Source of the DNA: Acidobacteriota bacterium
GTDB taxonomy: Bacteria; Acidobacteriota; Terriglobia; Bryobacterales; Bryobacteraceae
Direction of reading: 5' to 3'
Assembly: GCA_005808475.1 (NCBI GenBank)
Contig: SYLY01000017.1
Coordinates: forward strand, 1 to 64,000
DNA: 64,000 bases
The position numbers were made by a program, and so were the translations under genes. Under the pieces are notes generated by a model that did not search any database, had not been told where the DNA came from, and saw only the letters and a list, made by a program, of their open reading frames with translations. The number at the start of each line of letters is the position of its first letter. The first letter of the stretch is position 1. Positions 546 through 7,465 of the stretch are shown here, one piece after another.

Positions 546-1077
546 TCTGGCGTTGCTGTTCGCCTTCGCGTCGATGGCGCAGGATCCGAAATACAAGATC
601 GGCCGCGCCGCCGGCGCCGAGGACATCGCGGCAAAGGACATCACCGTTCTATCCGATGGACGCGGTCTTCCGCCCGGTTCCGGTACGGCCTCGCAAGGCC
701 GCGAGATCTACGAACGCCGCTGCCAGAAGTGCCACGGCAATCAGGGACAGGGCGGGGAAGAAGGGCCCGCGCTCGCCGGAGGCAACGGATCGCTGACCGG
801 ACCCAAGCCGGTGAAGACCGTCGGCAGCTACTGGCCTCACGCCACCACGCTGTTCGACTACACTCGCCGGGCGATGCCGTTCGACCGGCCCGGAACGCTC
901 ACCGACGATCAAGTCTATGCGTTGACCGCGCGCATGCTGTTCCTCAATGGGCTGATCGGCGAGACCGACGCGATGGACGCCAAGACGCTGGCTCAGGTGA
1001 AGATGCCGAATCGCGACGGTTTCGTCCGCGACAACCGGCCCGACACCAAGGGCGGCAAGGCGGTGAAGGCGAAGTGA
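532..1077 (+). CDS. SoxD-like monohaem cytochrome c, electron acceptor of the upstream molybdoenzyme
   Basis: 181 aa from a GTG start. An N-terminal hydrophobic segment (residues 2-16, ending SMAQ) looks like a signal peptide, so the protein should be periplasmic. The haem site CQKCH is at residues 64-68, preceded by GLPPGSGTASQGREIYERR, which matches SoxD-type cytochromes; an axial Met may lie in RRAMPFDRPGTL. It overlaps the upstream SoxC-like gene by 14 bp and its TGA overlaps the next GTG by 4 bp, so the genes are translationally coupled. Known members accept electrons from the molybdenum subunit during sulfite or sulfane-sulfur oxidation. The lysine-rich tail (KGGKAVKAK) is unremarkable. 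Confidence 0.82.
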   Translation: MSRLSLALLFAFASMAQDPKYKIGRAAGAEDIAAKDITVLSDGRGLPPGSGTASQGREIYERRCQKCHGNQGQGGEEGPALAGGNGSLTGPKPVKTVGSYWPHATTLFDYTRRAMPFDRPGTLTDDQVYALTARMLFLNGLIGETDAMDAKTLAQVKMPNRDGFVRDNRPDTKGGKAVKAK

Positions 1078-3397
1078 AGCGGTTGCTGGCGATCTTGCTG
1101 TGCGCGGCCGCGCTCGCCGCCCAGAGCGGACCCGAGGTGCTGCGCGCCAAGTGCCAGGGTTGCCACAACGCGAAGAACCGCGCCAGCGGCCTGGCGCTGG
1201 ACACTCGCGACGCGGTGCTCGCCGGCGGAAATCGCGGTTCCGCCGCGGCCCCGGGAAAGCCCGGCGAGAGCCGTCTGGTGAGCGCGATCCGCCACTCCGG
1301 CGAGTTGAAGATGCCGCCGGGCGGCAAGCTGAGCCAAACCGAGATCGCCGCCGTGGAGCGCTGGATCGAATCCGGACTGGATGGAATGAACGGCCCCGAG
1401 GCGAAGTCCGCGCCGAAGCATTGGGCGTTCACGCCTGCGTCGCGTCCGGCCGAACCTGCGGTTGGCGACGCCGGGTTCGCTCGAAATCCGATCGACAAAT
1501 TCGTGCTCGCCCGGCTCGAAAAAGAGGGGCTGGCGCCATCCGCCGAGGCGAGTCGCGAGACGCTGTTGCGGCGCGTGTCCTTCGACCTGACGGGGCTTCC
1601 TCCCACGCCCGCCGAGATGGCCCTGTTCGCGGCCGACCGGTCCGAGGGCGCCTACGAGCGCGCCGTGGAGCGGCTGCTCTCGTCGCCTCACTACGGCGAG
1701 CGCTGGGCGCGCCATTGGCTGGATCTCGCCCGCTATGCCGATTCCGACGGCGGCAGCCGCGACGAGCCCCGCCAAATCTGGAAGTACCGGGATTGGGTGA
1801 TTCGCGCCATCGGTTCGGACATGCCGTTCGACCGGTTCGTGGTGGAGCAGATCGCGGGCGACTTGATTCCCGGCGCATCGCCCGATCAGATCGTGGCCAC
1901 CGGGTTCCAGCGCAATTCACTGCTACAGATCGAGGCCGGGACCGATCGCGAGCAGTATCGCGTGGAAGCGGTCTCCGATCGCGTGGATACCTACGGCACC
2001 GTGTTCCTGGGGCTTTCGGCCGGTTGCGCGCGCTGTCACGATCACAAGTTCGATCCGCTCGCGCAGCGCGAATACTACCAGCTTTTCGCCTTCTTCAACA
2101 ACGTCGACGAGTACGGTCCGGCGCTTCCGCCGTTTTCCGAAACCAACGACCTCGAGGTGACGCACCGGCCCTTGCTCGCGCTCGGAAAACCGGCGGACAC
2201 GGCGCGGTACGACGCGCTCCGCGAGCAGATGCTGGCGCTGTACAAGGAGCGGTTCGACTACAAGGAACGCGCCAAGCCCAAGGGCGGCGACGCCGGACTG
2301 GCGGCGCGCAACGAGACCATCGCCGCGCTGAAGAAGCAACTGCCAAAAGTGGAACTGTCGCTGGTAATGCGCAACCTTCCGGAACCGCGCGAGACGTTCA
2401 TCCATTTGGGCGGAGACTTCCTGCGCCGCGGCGTTCGCGTGTTCCCATCCATGCCCGCCGGGTTTCATGCCGCGCCGGTTTCCAAGGATCCGCTCACCCG
2501 GCTCGATCTGGCGAAGTGGACGGTGAATCCGGCAAATCCGCTGCTGGCGCGGGTGACGGTGAACCGGATTTGGAGCCACTACTTCGGGCGCGGAATCGTC
2601 GAAACGGAGAACGACTTCGGCACGCAAGGCGCCAAGCCGTCGCATTCCGAACTGCTCGATTGGCTGGCAACCGAGTTCGTGGCGCGCGGCTGGAGCCAGA
2701 AGGCGATCCACCGCCTGATCGCGACATCGGCGGTCTACCGGCAGTCGTCGGCGTTCCGCGCCGATGCCGCGCGCGTGGATCCTCGCAACACGCTGCTGGC
2801 GCGGCAGAACCGGCTGCGCTTCGATGCCGAGATCGTGCGCGACGCGGCGTTGGCCGCCAGTGGCCTGCTGGAGCCGAAGACCGGTGGCCCGAGTGTGTTC
2901 CCCCCGCAGCCCGATGGCGCCATGGACGCGAGCCAAGTGAAGAAGTCGTGGAAAGAGAGCAAGGGCGCGGATCGTTTCCGGCGCGGCATGTACACGCACT
3001 TCTGGCGGATCACGCCGCATCCGGCGCTGGTGGTGTTCGACCAGCCGGGAGCGATGATGGCCTGCACGCGGCGGTCGCGCACCACCACGCCGTTGCAGGC
3101 GCTGACGCTGCTGAACGACGCGGCGTTCCACGAACTGGCGCGTGGCTTCGCGTCGCGCATCGTGAAGGAAGCGGCGCCCGATGCCCGGATCGGCTTGGCG
3201 TTCCAACTGGCGCTGGCTCGCGATCCGCTCGCGTCCGAGCGCGACCGGCTGGCGCGGCTCTACTCGGTGGAACTCGACGACTTTCGCACCAGGCCCGAGG
3301 AGGCCGCCAAGATGGCCGGCGCCGCCGATCCCGAACTCGCCGCTTGGACCAGCGTGGCGCGCGTCCTCATGAACACGGACGAATTCATCACGAGGGA

Positions 3398-3401
<4 letters not shown>
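1074..3401 (+). CDS. PSD1 / DUF1549 / DUF1553 planctomycete-type cytochrome c protein
   Basis: 775 aa from a GTG at 1074 that overlaps the preceding stop by 4 bp; open frame further upstream is a shadow of the cytochrome gene. The signal peptide is at residues 1-17 ([14 protein letters not shown]). A PSCyt1 haem motif, CQGCH, is at residues 27-31. The DUF1549 domain starts near [16 protein letters not shown] and contains the hallmark [11 protein letters not shown]; the C-terminal DUF1553 domain carries [14 protein letters not shown] and ends in the usual MNTDEF. Members are almost always followed by a DUF1501 gene, as here, and abound in Planctomycetes and Acidobacteria. Their biochemical role is unproven; an extracytoplasmic redox or degradation role is inferred from the haem site and the neighbouring sulfatase. 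Confidence 0.9.
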
Positions 3402-4783
<1,382 letters not shown>

Positions 4784-4792
4784 GGAGCCCGC

Positions 4793-6217
4793 ATGAACCG
4801 GCGCCATTTTCTAACGGCGGCAGCCGCCGCTCCGTTCGTTCACACCTCTTCCAAGGGCGCCACGCGCCGGCCCAACGTCGTCATGTTCATGACCGACGAT
4901 CACGGCGCCTGGACGCTGGGAACGTACGGCTGCGGCGCCGCGCACACTCCGAACATCGACGCGCTGGCGTCCGGCGGCGCGCGATTCGACCGCGCCTTCG
5001 CCTGCACGCCCGTCTGCTCGCCCAGCCGCATGACGTGGATCACCGGACGGGTTCCTTCCACCCACCGCGTGCAGGACTGGCTCCGGCCGGAGGACAGCTT
5101 CCAGGCGAATTCGCGCAAATGGCTGGACGGCCATCCCACCTACTCCGAGCATTTGGCGGCCAGCGGCTACAAGCTCGGCATGTGCGGCAAGTGGCACAGG
5201 GGCGACGACCATCTGGCGCAGAAGGGCTTCGACTATTGGGCCACGATCCCCGGCGGCGGCGGTCCGTACAAGGATCAGGAGTTCGTGGTGAACGGACGCA
5301 AGGTCCAGACCAAGGGCTTCAAGACGGATCGCGTCACCGACTTCGCGCTCGATTTCCTGGACGGCCGCCGCGGCAAGGAGGATCCGTTCTACCTGCTGGT
5401 TCCCTACTACGCGCCGCACACGCCCTTCGAGTTCCAGCCGGACGAATATCGCAAGCCGTTCGAGAACTCGACGTTCCCCTGCGCTCCCGATACGCCGGCG
5501 CATCCATGGCAGAACCGCGGCTTGCGGGCCCATCACGGCAATCGCGCGAGCAAGCACGCCTACGCGGCGCTGATTCGCGGCGTCGACCAGAACGTGGGCC
5601 GCGTGGTCAAGCGGCTCGAGGAGATGGGCGTGCGGGACGACACGTTGATCGTGTTCACCGCCGACCAAGGCTGGAACGCCGGGCAGCACGGAGTGTGGGG
5701 CAAGGGCAACGGCACCTGGCCGTTCAACATGTACGAGGAGTCCATCCGCGTTCCGCTCGTCTGGAACCACCCGCGCCGCATCAAGCCGGGCCAGCGCATG
5801 AACGCCATGGTGTCGTCGTACGACTACTTCCCGACAATTCTCGACTACGTGGGCGTGAAGGCTCCGGCCGATCCCAAGCGCGTGGGCCGCAGCTACGCGG
5901 ACTTCCTCCGGGGCAGAAATCCGAAATGGCGCAACCGGCTGTTCTTCGAATACGCCTACGTCCGCGGGCTTCGCACGGAGAACGTGAAGCTGATCCAGCG
6001 GATCGAGAAGTGGCCGAGCGAATTCTACGATCTCGAGGCCGATCCCGGCGAGACGAAGAACCTGATCTCCGGCGCGGCTCACAAGAAGCAGATCGATGCC
6101 ATGCGGGCGGAGATCGCCGGCTTTTTCGGCAAGATCGGCGCGCCGGATATCGAGGCGTGGCAAAACACCACGCACCAGCAACTGACCGGCTACGCGGCCG
6201 CCAATCCGCGGAATTGA
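4793..6217 (+). CDS. Tat-exported type I sulfatase
   Basis: 474 aa, starting 9 bp after the DUF1501 stop, with MNRRHFLTAAAAAPF as a Tat signal. The N-terminal metal motif MFMTDDHGAW and the sulfatase signature with Cys75 in CSPSRMTWITGR are intact; Cys75-x-Pro-Ser-Arg79 is the site normally converted to formylglycine, which needs an FGE enzyme encoded elsewhere. FTADQGWNAGQHGVWGKG carries further metal and sulfate ligands. It is the last gene of the operon beginning with the Sox-like pair. The family hydrolyses sulfate esters, often of polysaccharides. The operon context raises the possibility, as inference only, that released sulfur or organosulfur chemistry links to the sulfite dehydrogenase at its start. 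Confidence 0.92.
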   Translation: MNRRHFLTAAAAAPFVHTSSKGATRRPNVVMFMTDDHGAWTLGTYGCGAAHTPNIDALASGGARFDRAFACTPVCSPSRMTWITGRVPSTHRVQDWLRPEDSFQANSRKWLDGHPTYSEHLAASGYKLGMCGKWHRGDDHLAQKGFDYWATIPGGGGPYKDQEFVVNGRKVQTKGFKTDRVTDFALDFLDGRRGKEDPFYLLVPYYAPHTPFEFQPDEYRKPFENSTFPCAPDTPAHPWQNRGLRAHHGNRASKHAYAALIRGVDQNVGRVVKRLEEMGVRDDTLIVFTADQGWNAGQHGVWGKGNGTWPFNMYEESIRVPLVWNHPRRIKPGQRMNAMVSSYDYFPTILDYVGVKAPADPKRVGRSYADFLRGRNPKWRNRLFFEYAYVRGLRTENVKLIQRIEKWPSEFYDLEADPGETKNLISGAAHKKQIDAMRAEIAGFFGKIGAPDIEAWQNTTHQQLTGYAAANPRN

Positions 6218-6227
6218 GGTCGAGAGT

Positions 6228-6257
6228 CTGACGCGGGGGGCCGTTTGGCTGTAGAAT
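6228..6257 (+). promoter_or_regulatory. Candidate sigma-70 promoter of the Rrf2-clpP operon
   Basis: CTGACG at 6228-6233 (4/6 to TTGACA) and TAGAAT at 6252-6257 (5/6 to TATAAT) are separated by 18 bp. The predicted start near 6264 would place the 37-bp dyad at the very beginning of the transcript. Assigned by eye. Confidence 0.4.
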
Positions 6258-6260
6258 TAA

Positions 6261-6297
6261 GGACAAGCATATCGGTTTTTTACCGAGGGGCCTGTCC
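6261..6297. promoter_or_regulatory. 37-bp imperfect dyad directly upstream of the Rrf2 gene (operator or RNA hairpin)
   Basis: The left arm 6261-6276 and right arm 6282-6297 pair at 12 of 16 positions around a centre of five T (6277-6281). The inner perfect pair is TCGGT/ACCGA and the outer pair GGACA/TGTCC. It sits between a candidate -10 box and the ATG at 6301 and contains the GAGGGG ribosome-binding site (6285-6290). It could be the autoregulatory operator of the Rrf2 protein, or in RNA a hairpin that masks the binding site. Confidence 0.5.
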
Positions 6298-6300
6298 AAC

Positions 6301-6786
6301 ATGATCTACTCACGCTCGGCCGAGTACGCGATTCGCGCTTTCGTGCACTTGGCCTCGGTTCCGCCAGGCAAGTTCGCCATGGCGAAGCAGATCGCCGGAG
6401 AGGCGGATATTCCGGCGCATTTTCTCGCGAAGATCCTGCAGCAGTTGGCGCGCAAGGGACTCCTGCGGTCGAGCAAGGGGCCGACGGGAGGGTTCACGCT
6501 GGCGATCGCGCCGCGCGACATTTCGCTGTGCCAGATCGTGGACGCCGTGGACGGCCTGAGCGACTACAAACGCTGCCTCGGCGGCCGCACCGAATGCCGG
6601 GACGACGCGCCGTGCGGACTGCACGATAGCTGGAAGCGGATGCGGTCGTCTATCATAGATTATTTGGAGGGCACGTCGATCTTGGTGGTGGCCAACTCCC
6701 TGGAGCAGAAGCGGCGCGCTCTCGGGCAGTTGCCGGCGCAAGAGGCTCCGGCGCCCCGCAAGAACGGTTCCCGGAAGAAACAATAA
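6301..6786 (+). CDS. Rrf2/IscR-family transcriptional regulator with three conserved cysteines
   Basis: 161 aa. It opens [18 protein letters not shown], the standard Rrf2 winged-helix start, followed by the recognition-helix region ([19 protein letters not shown]) and the wing GPTGGFTLA. Cys92, Cys99 and Cys105 (C-x6-C-x5-C) match the Fe-S ligand spacing of IscR/NsrR-type regulators within one residue, so a cluster-sensing role is plausible. The C-terminus is a basic tail (RKNGSRKKQ). The RBS GAGGGG is 10 nt upstream, inside a large dyad. clpP starts 7 bp downstream, suggesting one transcript and possibly redox- or iron-linked control of ClpP. No isc or suf genes are adjacent. Confidence 0.9.
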
Positions 6787-6793
6787 AACCTTT

Positions 6794-7465
6794 ATGTTGA
6801 TTCGTACACCCAAGCGCACACTCGATCCCTTTCAGGGAGCCGAACGACAGGTGGAGGCGCTGAACTCCGTCCTGGTTCCGATGGTGGTGGAACAGACCGC
6901 CCGCGGCGAGCGCGCGTTCGATATCTACTCGCGTCTTCTCAAGGAGAACATCATCTTCCTCGGGACGCCTGTCGACGATCAAGTGGCCAATCTGGTCATC
7001 GCGCAGATCCTGTTCCTGACGGCCGAAGATCCCGAAAAGGACATCTCGCTCTACATCAACTCGCCGGGCGGGTCGATCACCGCCGGGCTGGCGATTCTCG
7101 ACACGATGAATCTGGTGGAGCCCGACATCGTCACCTACTGCGTCGGCCAAGCGGCGTCGATGGCCGCCGTGCTGCTCGCCTGCGGAACCAAGGGCAAGCG
7201 GTTCAGCCTGCCTCATTCGCGCATTCTGATTCACCAGCCGTCGATGAGCGGACTGGCCGGGCAGGCCGCCGACATCGATATCTACGCGCGCGAGATTCTG
7301 CGCATGCGGGAGATCCTCAACGGCATTCTCGCCAACGCCACCGGCCAGTCGGTGGACCGCATCGCGCGCGACGTCGACCGCGACTACATCATGGAGCCCG
7401 ATCAAGCGCTGGCGTACGGCATGATCGACCGCATCGTGGTGAATCGCGACTCGATGCCCAAATAG
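6794..7465 (+). CDS. clpP: ATP-dependent Clp protease proteolytic subunit ClpP
   Basis: 223 aa from the ATG at 6794. Catalytic residues by alignment with E. coli ClpP are Ser122 ([12 protein letters not shown]), His147 (SRILIHQP) and Asp197 (DVDRDYIM). [14 protein letters not shown] is also conserved. The N-terminus is about 25 residues longer than the usual VPMVVEQT start, so either there is a long propeptide or translation begins nearer VLVPM; no strong RBS decides it. No clpX or clpA follows. ClpP forms tetradecamers that degrade proteins unfolded by Clp ATPases. Placement directly behind an Rrf2 regulator rather than beside tig/clpX is unusual and may mean this is a second ClpP. Confidence 0.93.

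Follow-up and report, generated by a model that had tools for sequence, protein, structure and literature searches.

Organization of the rrf2-clpP Locus

The window analyzed here, a stretch of 64,000 nucleotides from a member of the Bryobacteraceae, was found to contain a gene for an Rrf2-family regulator directly followed by clpP (Table 1). ORF reading and Pfam searches bore out what the first-pass annotation had said of this pair, namely that clpP, beginning at 6794, follows 7 nt after the stop of an Rrf2 gene with a C-x6-C-x5-C motif. The intergenic region upstream of rrf2 is 83 nt long. As had also been proposed, it contains a 37-bp dyad between a -10 box (TAGAAT, 6252–6257, a good candidate with CTGACG 18 nt 5′ of it) and the ATG of the ORF starting at 6301. 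TAAGGA at 6258–6263 is the counterpart of the -10 sequence of relatives, and purine-rich tracts were seen by eye at a place comparable to that of the candidate Shine-Dalgarno sequence upstream of rrf2 in many relatives. Further upstream (1074–6217), a PSCyt1/PSCyt2/PSD1 protein, a DUF1501 protein and a sulfatase are encoded in series, a set familiar from Planctomycetes.

Table 1. Features of the rrf2-clpP region, in window coordinates.
Feature	Position	Strand	Basis or remark
Candidate sigma-70-type promoter, CTGACG-N18-TAGAAT	6228..6257	+	Sequence reading
Diverged copy of the family promoter/operator element (TTAAGGACAAGCATAT; relatives TTAAGATAAnnGnGTA)	6255..6288	+	Leave-genus-out matrix
Imperfect dyad with arms of 16 bp (12 paired) and a loop of 5	6261..6297	.	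Sequence, confirmed
Candidate Shine-Dalgarno sequence of rrf2, GAGGGG	6285..6290	+	Within right arm of dyad; sequence reading
Rrf2-family regulator, 161 aa	6301..6786	+	Pfam PF02082, E 2e-31
Ligand codon C92	6574-6576	+	
Ligand codon C99	6595-6597	+	
Ligand codon C105	6613-6615	+	
Ligand codon H108	6622-6624	+	
clpP, 223 aa	6794..7465	+	Pfam PF00574 CLP_protease, E 1.8e-77

An rrf2 orthologue (E ≤ 1e-28) was found in 117 of 237 genomes of the family, representing 54 of 76 genera. Of the loci, 115 extended 300 nt or more past the rrf2 stop, and 113 of these had clpP on the same strand at most 250 nt after rrf2; five loci with less sequence were set aside for this count, and L120 was retained. 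The two loci without clpP were L097, where the contig runs on for 472 nt, and a second copy, L114. At least one linked locus was present in all 54 genera holding an orthologue, and rrf2 is shown to head a conserved two-gene operon with clpP in this family. No orthologue was detected at this cut-off in the other 120 of 237 genomes (it was present in 74 of 148 well-assembled ones), and control by it is therefore dispensable. For motif and ligand counts, 119 of 124 loci (L008–L131) were used, leaving out L120, whose start lies past the contig end, and L126, L127, L130, and L131, which are distant paralogues without clpP. A few near-copies or second copies from one genome (L058/L064, L065/L114, L071/L116) are included among the loci. 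A search of viral contigs gave no relative. No published account of an rrf2-clpP operon was found among the titles and abstract openings listed, a coverage outside which preprints and most subscription papers lie.

Features of the Rrf2 Protein

The protein scored above the curated cut-offs of the general Rrf2 profiles (PF02082, 109.3 vs. 30 bits; TIGR00738, 110.5 vs. 73.3 bits) and did not reach those of the IscR equivalogs (TIGR02010, 69 vs. 207.55 bits; NF008110, 43.3 vs. 275 bits). By NCBIfam it belongs to the superfamily and lies far below the equivalog cut-offs for IscR, RirA, CymR, and NsrR; all 21 proteins of alignment A1 matched the same models. The solved structures nearest to it by sequence were Rrf2 regulators, IscR included (PDB 4hf2 and others). 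Its IscR-like ligand set, C92-x6-C99-x5-C105 plus H108, was highly conserved among the 119 orthologues (C92 in 112, C99 in 113, C105 in 113, and H108 in 112). Three conserved cysteines with a conserved fourth ligand are what marks the Fe-S-binding Rrf2 subgroup, and the protein is probably an iron-sulfur-sensing regulator, as predicted from these residues. Besides, P38, H40-F41-L42-A43-K44, and K59, which by IscR numbering we take to form the DNA-contacting helix and the wing, were 97–100% conserved in the 119 orthologues.

The full ligand set was present at 77 of 77 loci bearing the upstream element described below, vs. 34 of 42 loci lacking it, a tie that is partly phylogenetic, by descent. 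At the loci of G005 and G027 and at six more, at least one ligand was lost and the element was absent, and clpP still adjoined rrf2.

A Promoter Element Shared by Relatives

An unsupervised motif search of the 119 upstream regions gave one strong motif. This element, ctTTTAAGATAAcgGaGTA, was common to 77 of the regions, from 40 of 54 genera (99% null), the median distance from its start to the start codon being 48 nt. The first matrix was fitted with the genus of the window included and was later refitted without it, which gave the consensus ctTTTAAGATAAcgGaGTAnttTtAccccgantt. The element carries a -10-like TAAGAT, and TTGC or TTGA was found at -35 spacing in 63 of the 77 element-bearing loci, compared to 19 of 462 control positions. 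In 11 of the 40 element-bearing genera the 3′ part forms a palindrome around CGGAGTARCNTTACTCCG, the best locus of each pairing at 7–10 of 11 arm positions; the remaining genera retain the left half, and the partner half is variable. Over all loci, symmetry showed a modest excess compared to permuted arms (z 2.4 at the CGGAGTARCNTTACTCCG centre, 3.9 at another). A single palindrome centre for all genera was ruled out, as the centre varies by genus. Four loci of one genus (L103, L104, L106, and L107; g42) showed a different conserved upstream pattern containing a palindrome, GAATAAGG-T-CCTTATTC, some 80 nt upstream of rrf2, which is possibly another type of operator.

Since TAAGAT resembles a -10 sequence and TTGC, at the correct spacing, a -35 sequence, the element might be a promoter alone, made up of these two and the surroundings of the start site, without a bound regulator. 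However, conservation continues beyond the -10 sequence into GnGTA, and the palindrome lies there in 11 genera. Moreover, the exact core of the element, TTTAAGATAANNGNGTA, gave 27 matches in the 237 family genomes, one in each of 27 genomes, and all 27 were located 42–73 nt before rrf2 on the same strand; the reversed control gave no match in the 237 genomes. Since the exact core occurs solely at rrf2-clpP, it is not a general promoter, and we consider the promoter-only explanation unlikely.

The Window Copy of the Element and the 37-bp Dyad

The dyad at 6261–6297 reads GGACAAGCATATCGGT-TTTTT-ACCGAGGGGCCTGTCC, with 12 of 16 positions complementary around a T5 centre, just as first described. 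When the 83-nt intergenic region was shuffled 400 times by dinucleotides, three shuffles gave an equally good dyad; 55 placements in the 64-kb window were of similar quality (loops 3–10), and 6 of 118 other rrf2 upstream regions had a dyad of equal quality within their last 83 nt. It is a real and locally unusual structure, yet an ordinary one that is private to the genome of the window, and it exceeds chance only partly.

Lack of the dyad in relatives had been named at the outset as a finding that would count as refutation, and for the dyad this is what was observed. At the same place and with the same loop, none of the 118 other orthologous upstream regions exceeded 8 of 16 pairs, two congeners included; the best dyads of these congeners (8 and 9 of 16) were at other positions. 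A search widened to starts from -50 to -35 and loops of 3–7 gave 12 of 16 pairs in L066, 14 in L099, and 11 in four others. The dyad is not conserved, and its suggested role as a conserved operator was ruled out on these counts.

What is conserved is the element that lies beneath the left arm. Scored with the leave-genus-out matrix (77 loci of 40 other genera), position 6255, which is 46 nt before the rrf2 start codon, ranked second among 127,934 positions over 34 columns and first among 127,964 positions (both window strands) over the 19-column core. The dyad left arm, which makes up the larger part of TTAAGGACAAGCATAT, is therefore a diverged copy of the element. At the expected place only, 1 of 2000 shuffles of the upstream region scored as high as this copy; for the best site anywhere, the first matrix gave p 0.02. 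The copy scored 0.5 under the first matrix, below the 99% null, which counts against the explanation that we favor. Among the congeners, L009 showed a weaker copy at -46, and matrix scoring revealed no recognisable element in the L010 upstream region.

The dyad might instead be the Rrf2 operator of this particular species, a new inverted repeat (TCGGT-N5-ACCGA inside GGACA…TGTCC) having replaced the former site in this lineage. The few shuffles that match its quality and its position astride the expected start site, where the palindrome of relatives sits, are in keeping with this. On the other hand, the two congeners, whose Rrf2 is about 80% identical, have no such dyad, the 55 placements in the window are equally good, and the presumed DNA-contact residues are so conserved among the 119 orthologues that a wholly new target is not to be expected. 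We regard a lineage-specific operator of this kind as quite improbable.

Search for a Wider Regulon

The exact palindrome GGAGTARNNTTACTCC was found in 19 of 237 genomes, in 15 of them at rrf2-clpP, and its reversed control in 11 genomes. The other sites were in G081, at a contig edge, and in G088, G191, and G221, which have no rrf2 orthologue at the cut-off. Allowing up to two mismatches, in 24 genomes hand-picked for carrying or adjoining the palindrome type, the palindrome was detected at rrf2-clpP in 21, together with 11 other sites, all with two mismatches, compared to 11 control matches. The element was also sought around sufB, in 22 stretches that included 1.5 kb on either side (21 genomes, the fragment L313 left out); there was no copy of it (best score 2.0 vs. 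a threshold of 3.54) and no rrf2 homologue (E ≤ 1e-3). IscR/SufR-type regulators of Fe-S assembly are marked by isc or suf genes encoded with them or by an operator at suf; here the neighbour is clpP (113 of 115 loci), and the sufB stretches, the part of isc/suf that was scanned, gave no operator. A wider regulon was rejected on these scans, given that the two-mismatch sites in the 24 genomes equal the control and nothing was found at the 22 sufB stretches. These results point to a site that serves a single operon; a scan for the exact core could miss diverged copies in other places.

Several characterised Rrf2 regulators act on isc/suf or iron genes, according to two reports (PMC9973013, PMC9338935). 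The adjacency of rrf2 and clpP could be an inherited accident; Rrf2 would then have its targets elsewhere, among iron or Fe-S genes, and clpP would be transcribed by incidental read-through. Linkage in every genus with an orthologue, the lack of a second exact core in 237 genomes (which diverged sites would escape) and the empty sufB stretches speak against this, and we find it very doubtful.

Folding of the Leader RNA

Control of translation by RNA folding had been suggested as well, and as RNA the 6261–6297 segment, with the purine stretch included, folds at -16.8 kcal/mol (z -3.9), so that a hairpin could hide the GAGGGG Shine-Dalgarno sequence. A leader from about 6264, the start assumed 7 nt after TAGAAT, folds at -9.5 kcal/mol (z -0.85) with the outer stem mostly lost, while one from 6261 would retain -18.5 kcal/mol; the leaders of 77 relatives showed no excess folding (mean z -0.10, two below -2). 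Because of these values for the window leader and for the relatives, and with the dyad itself unconserved, an RNA gate is highly improbable and, under the assumed start site, is ruled out by leader folding.

History of clpP in the Family

The ClpP protein scored above the cut-offs of PF00574 (259.8 vs. 20.2 bits) and NF001368 (308.3 vs. 249 bits) and slightly below that of TIGR00493 (297.9 vs. 308.6). In its own genome, the assembly of which is 77% complete, it was the one clpP match at E ≤ 1e-20, no clpX match was detected, and clpP (contig C113) does not lie beside tig (contig C376) and clpX as in a tig-clpP-clpX operon. Among 32 genomes sampled outside the family but within its order and class, 30 had clpP, which was adjacent to tig in all 30 and also to clpX in 12. 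Among 49 sampled genomes of the window family, clpP was found in 47 and was single in 45, and it was adjacent to tig in one; tig and clpX were directly adjacent without clpP in 21 of the 49. In 13 family genomes without an rrf2 orthologue (L161–L173), clpP was found after other ORFs and not after tig. A response-regulator-like ORF on the opposite strand was seen by eye to be common to the clpP surroundings in four of these (L161, L162, L163, and L165).

A tree of 64 chosen ClpP sequences, midpoint-rooted and with many weak inner branches, placed the tig-linked ClpPs, with the second copies of G005 and G027 among them, apart from lone and rrf2-linked ones, with a support of 100/98. Linkage to rrf2 requires about 10 changes on this tree, which we read as repeated losses. 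As a tentative reading, somewhat short of probable, the ClpP of the tig operon may have been replaced in Bryobacteraceae by a paralogue under a dedicated one-operator Fe-S switch, which would later have been lost in several lineages. If true, the only ClpP of the cell, and hence all ClpP-dependent proteolysis, would be set by Fe-S cluster status. The locus also documents the departure of a housekeeping clpP from its classical operon.

G005 and G027 (L128, L125, L314, and L315) contain an rrf2-linked clpP and a second clpP, by tig in G005 and by clpX in G027; their Rrf2 copies have lost Cys ligands, and the promoter element is absent. Keeping both paralogues is what would be expected of intermediates in such a replacement. 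In the sister family f2, one genome (L178, G049) was found to contain tig-clpP-clpX and a second, divergent clpP elsewhere, which was placed at the base of the rrf2-linked side of the ClpP tree on a long branch, so that its placement is unsure.

Proposed Regulation and Comparison with Known Systems

A conserved single-locus element is present at the promoter of the regulator gene and is a candidate for the specific site that an autoregulated operon would have. The operon with its private element would be a case of autoregulation by an Rrf2 protein, unusual in its target, clpP. We find it fairly likely that the product of the first gene controls rrf2-clpP by way of an operator private to this operon, Rrf2 being a one-site autorepressor that would tie ClpP supply to Fe-S status. 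An Rrf2 dimer with an Fe-S cluster on Cys92, Cys99, Cys105, and His108 would bind the element, overlapping the -10 sequence and the presumed transcription start and so blocking RNA polymerase. Loss or alteration of the cluster, for instance under iron shortage, oxidants, nitric oxide, or high cluster demand, would relieve repression, and Rrf2 would then be made together with ClpP, the proteolytic core common to the Clp proteases. We infer repression from the position of the element and from the analogy with RisR (see below); Rrf2 proteins can act as activators too. In the genome of the window, the operator would have drifted and be partly overlain by the unconserved dyad. The earlier suggestion of a possible Fe-S or redox control of ClpP is compatible with the conserved IscR-like Rrf2, the operon and the element; the part of it that made the dyad the operator is not supported.

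In Escherichia coli, IscR is a [2Fe-2S] autorepressor of the isc operon. Like IscR, the regulator described here belongs to the Rrf2 family, is encoded by the first gene of the operon under its presumed control and has three cysteines with a histidine three residues past the third. It differs in having clpP instead of isc as partner, in C-x6-C instead of C-x5-C spacing, in an operator that does not resemble the type 1 site of IscR and in its low score against the IscR equivalog.

For RisR of Myxococcus xanthus, the report (PMC9973013) describes a holo form that represses isc and suf with a [4Fe-4S] cluster, at sites that overlap promoter hexamers; RisR belongs to Rrf2 group IS6, in which Acidobacteria are included. 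As given there, its imperfect palindrome, T(t/g)GAC-N7-GTCC(t/a), is close to the GGAG-N8-CTCC seen here, the spacing being different by one base. RisR is described as acting on isc/suf, whereas the present Rrf2 gene has clpP attached, and the scanned sufB stretches contained no site.

The tig-clpP(-clpX) operon likewise contains the housekeeping clpP, but clpP of the window family was tig-adjacent in only 1 of 47 genomes. General proteolysis in bacteria centres on ClpP. Its control by heat or by protein-stress regulators is known, CtsR and HspR-type proteins being dedicated repressors of clp protease genes. The rrf2-clpP operon would resemble these systems in having a dedicated, here putative, repressor for clp genes, and would provide a very simple circuit of one regulator and one site. 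CtsR/HspR-type repressors sense heat or protein stress, whereas a family-wide operon headed by an Rrf2 protein with an Fe-S ligand set, and with an exclusive operator, would tie proteolytic capacity directly to the Fe-S/redox state in these acidobacteria.
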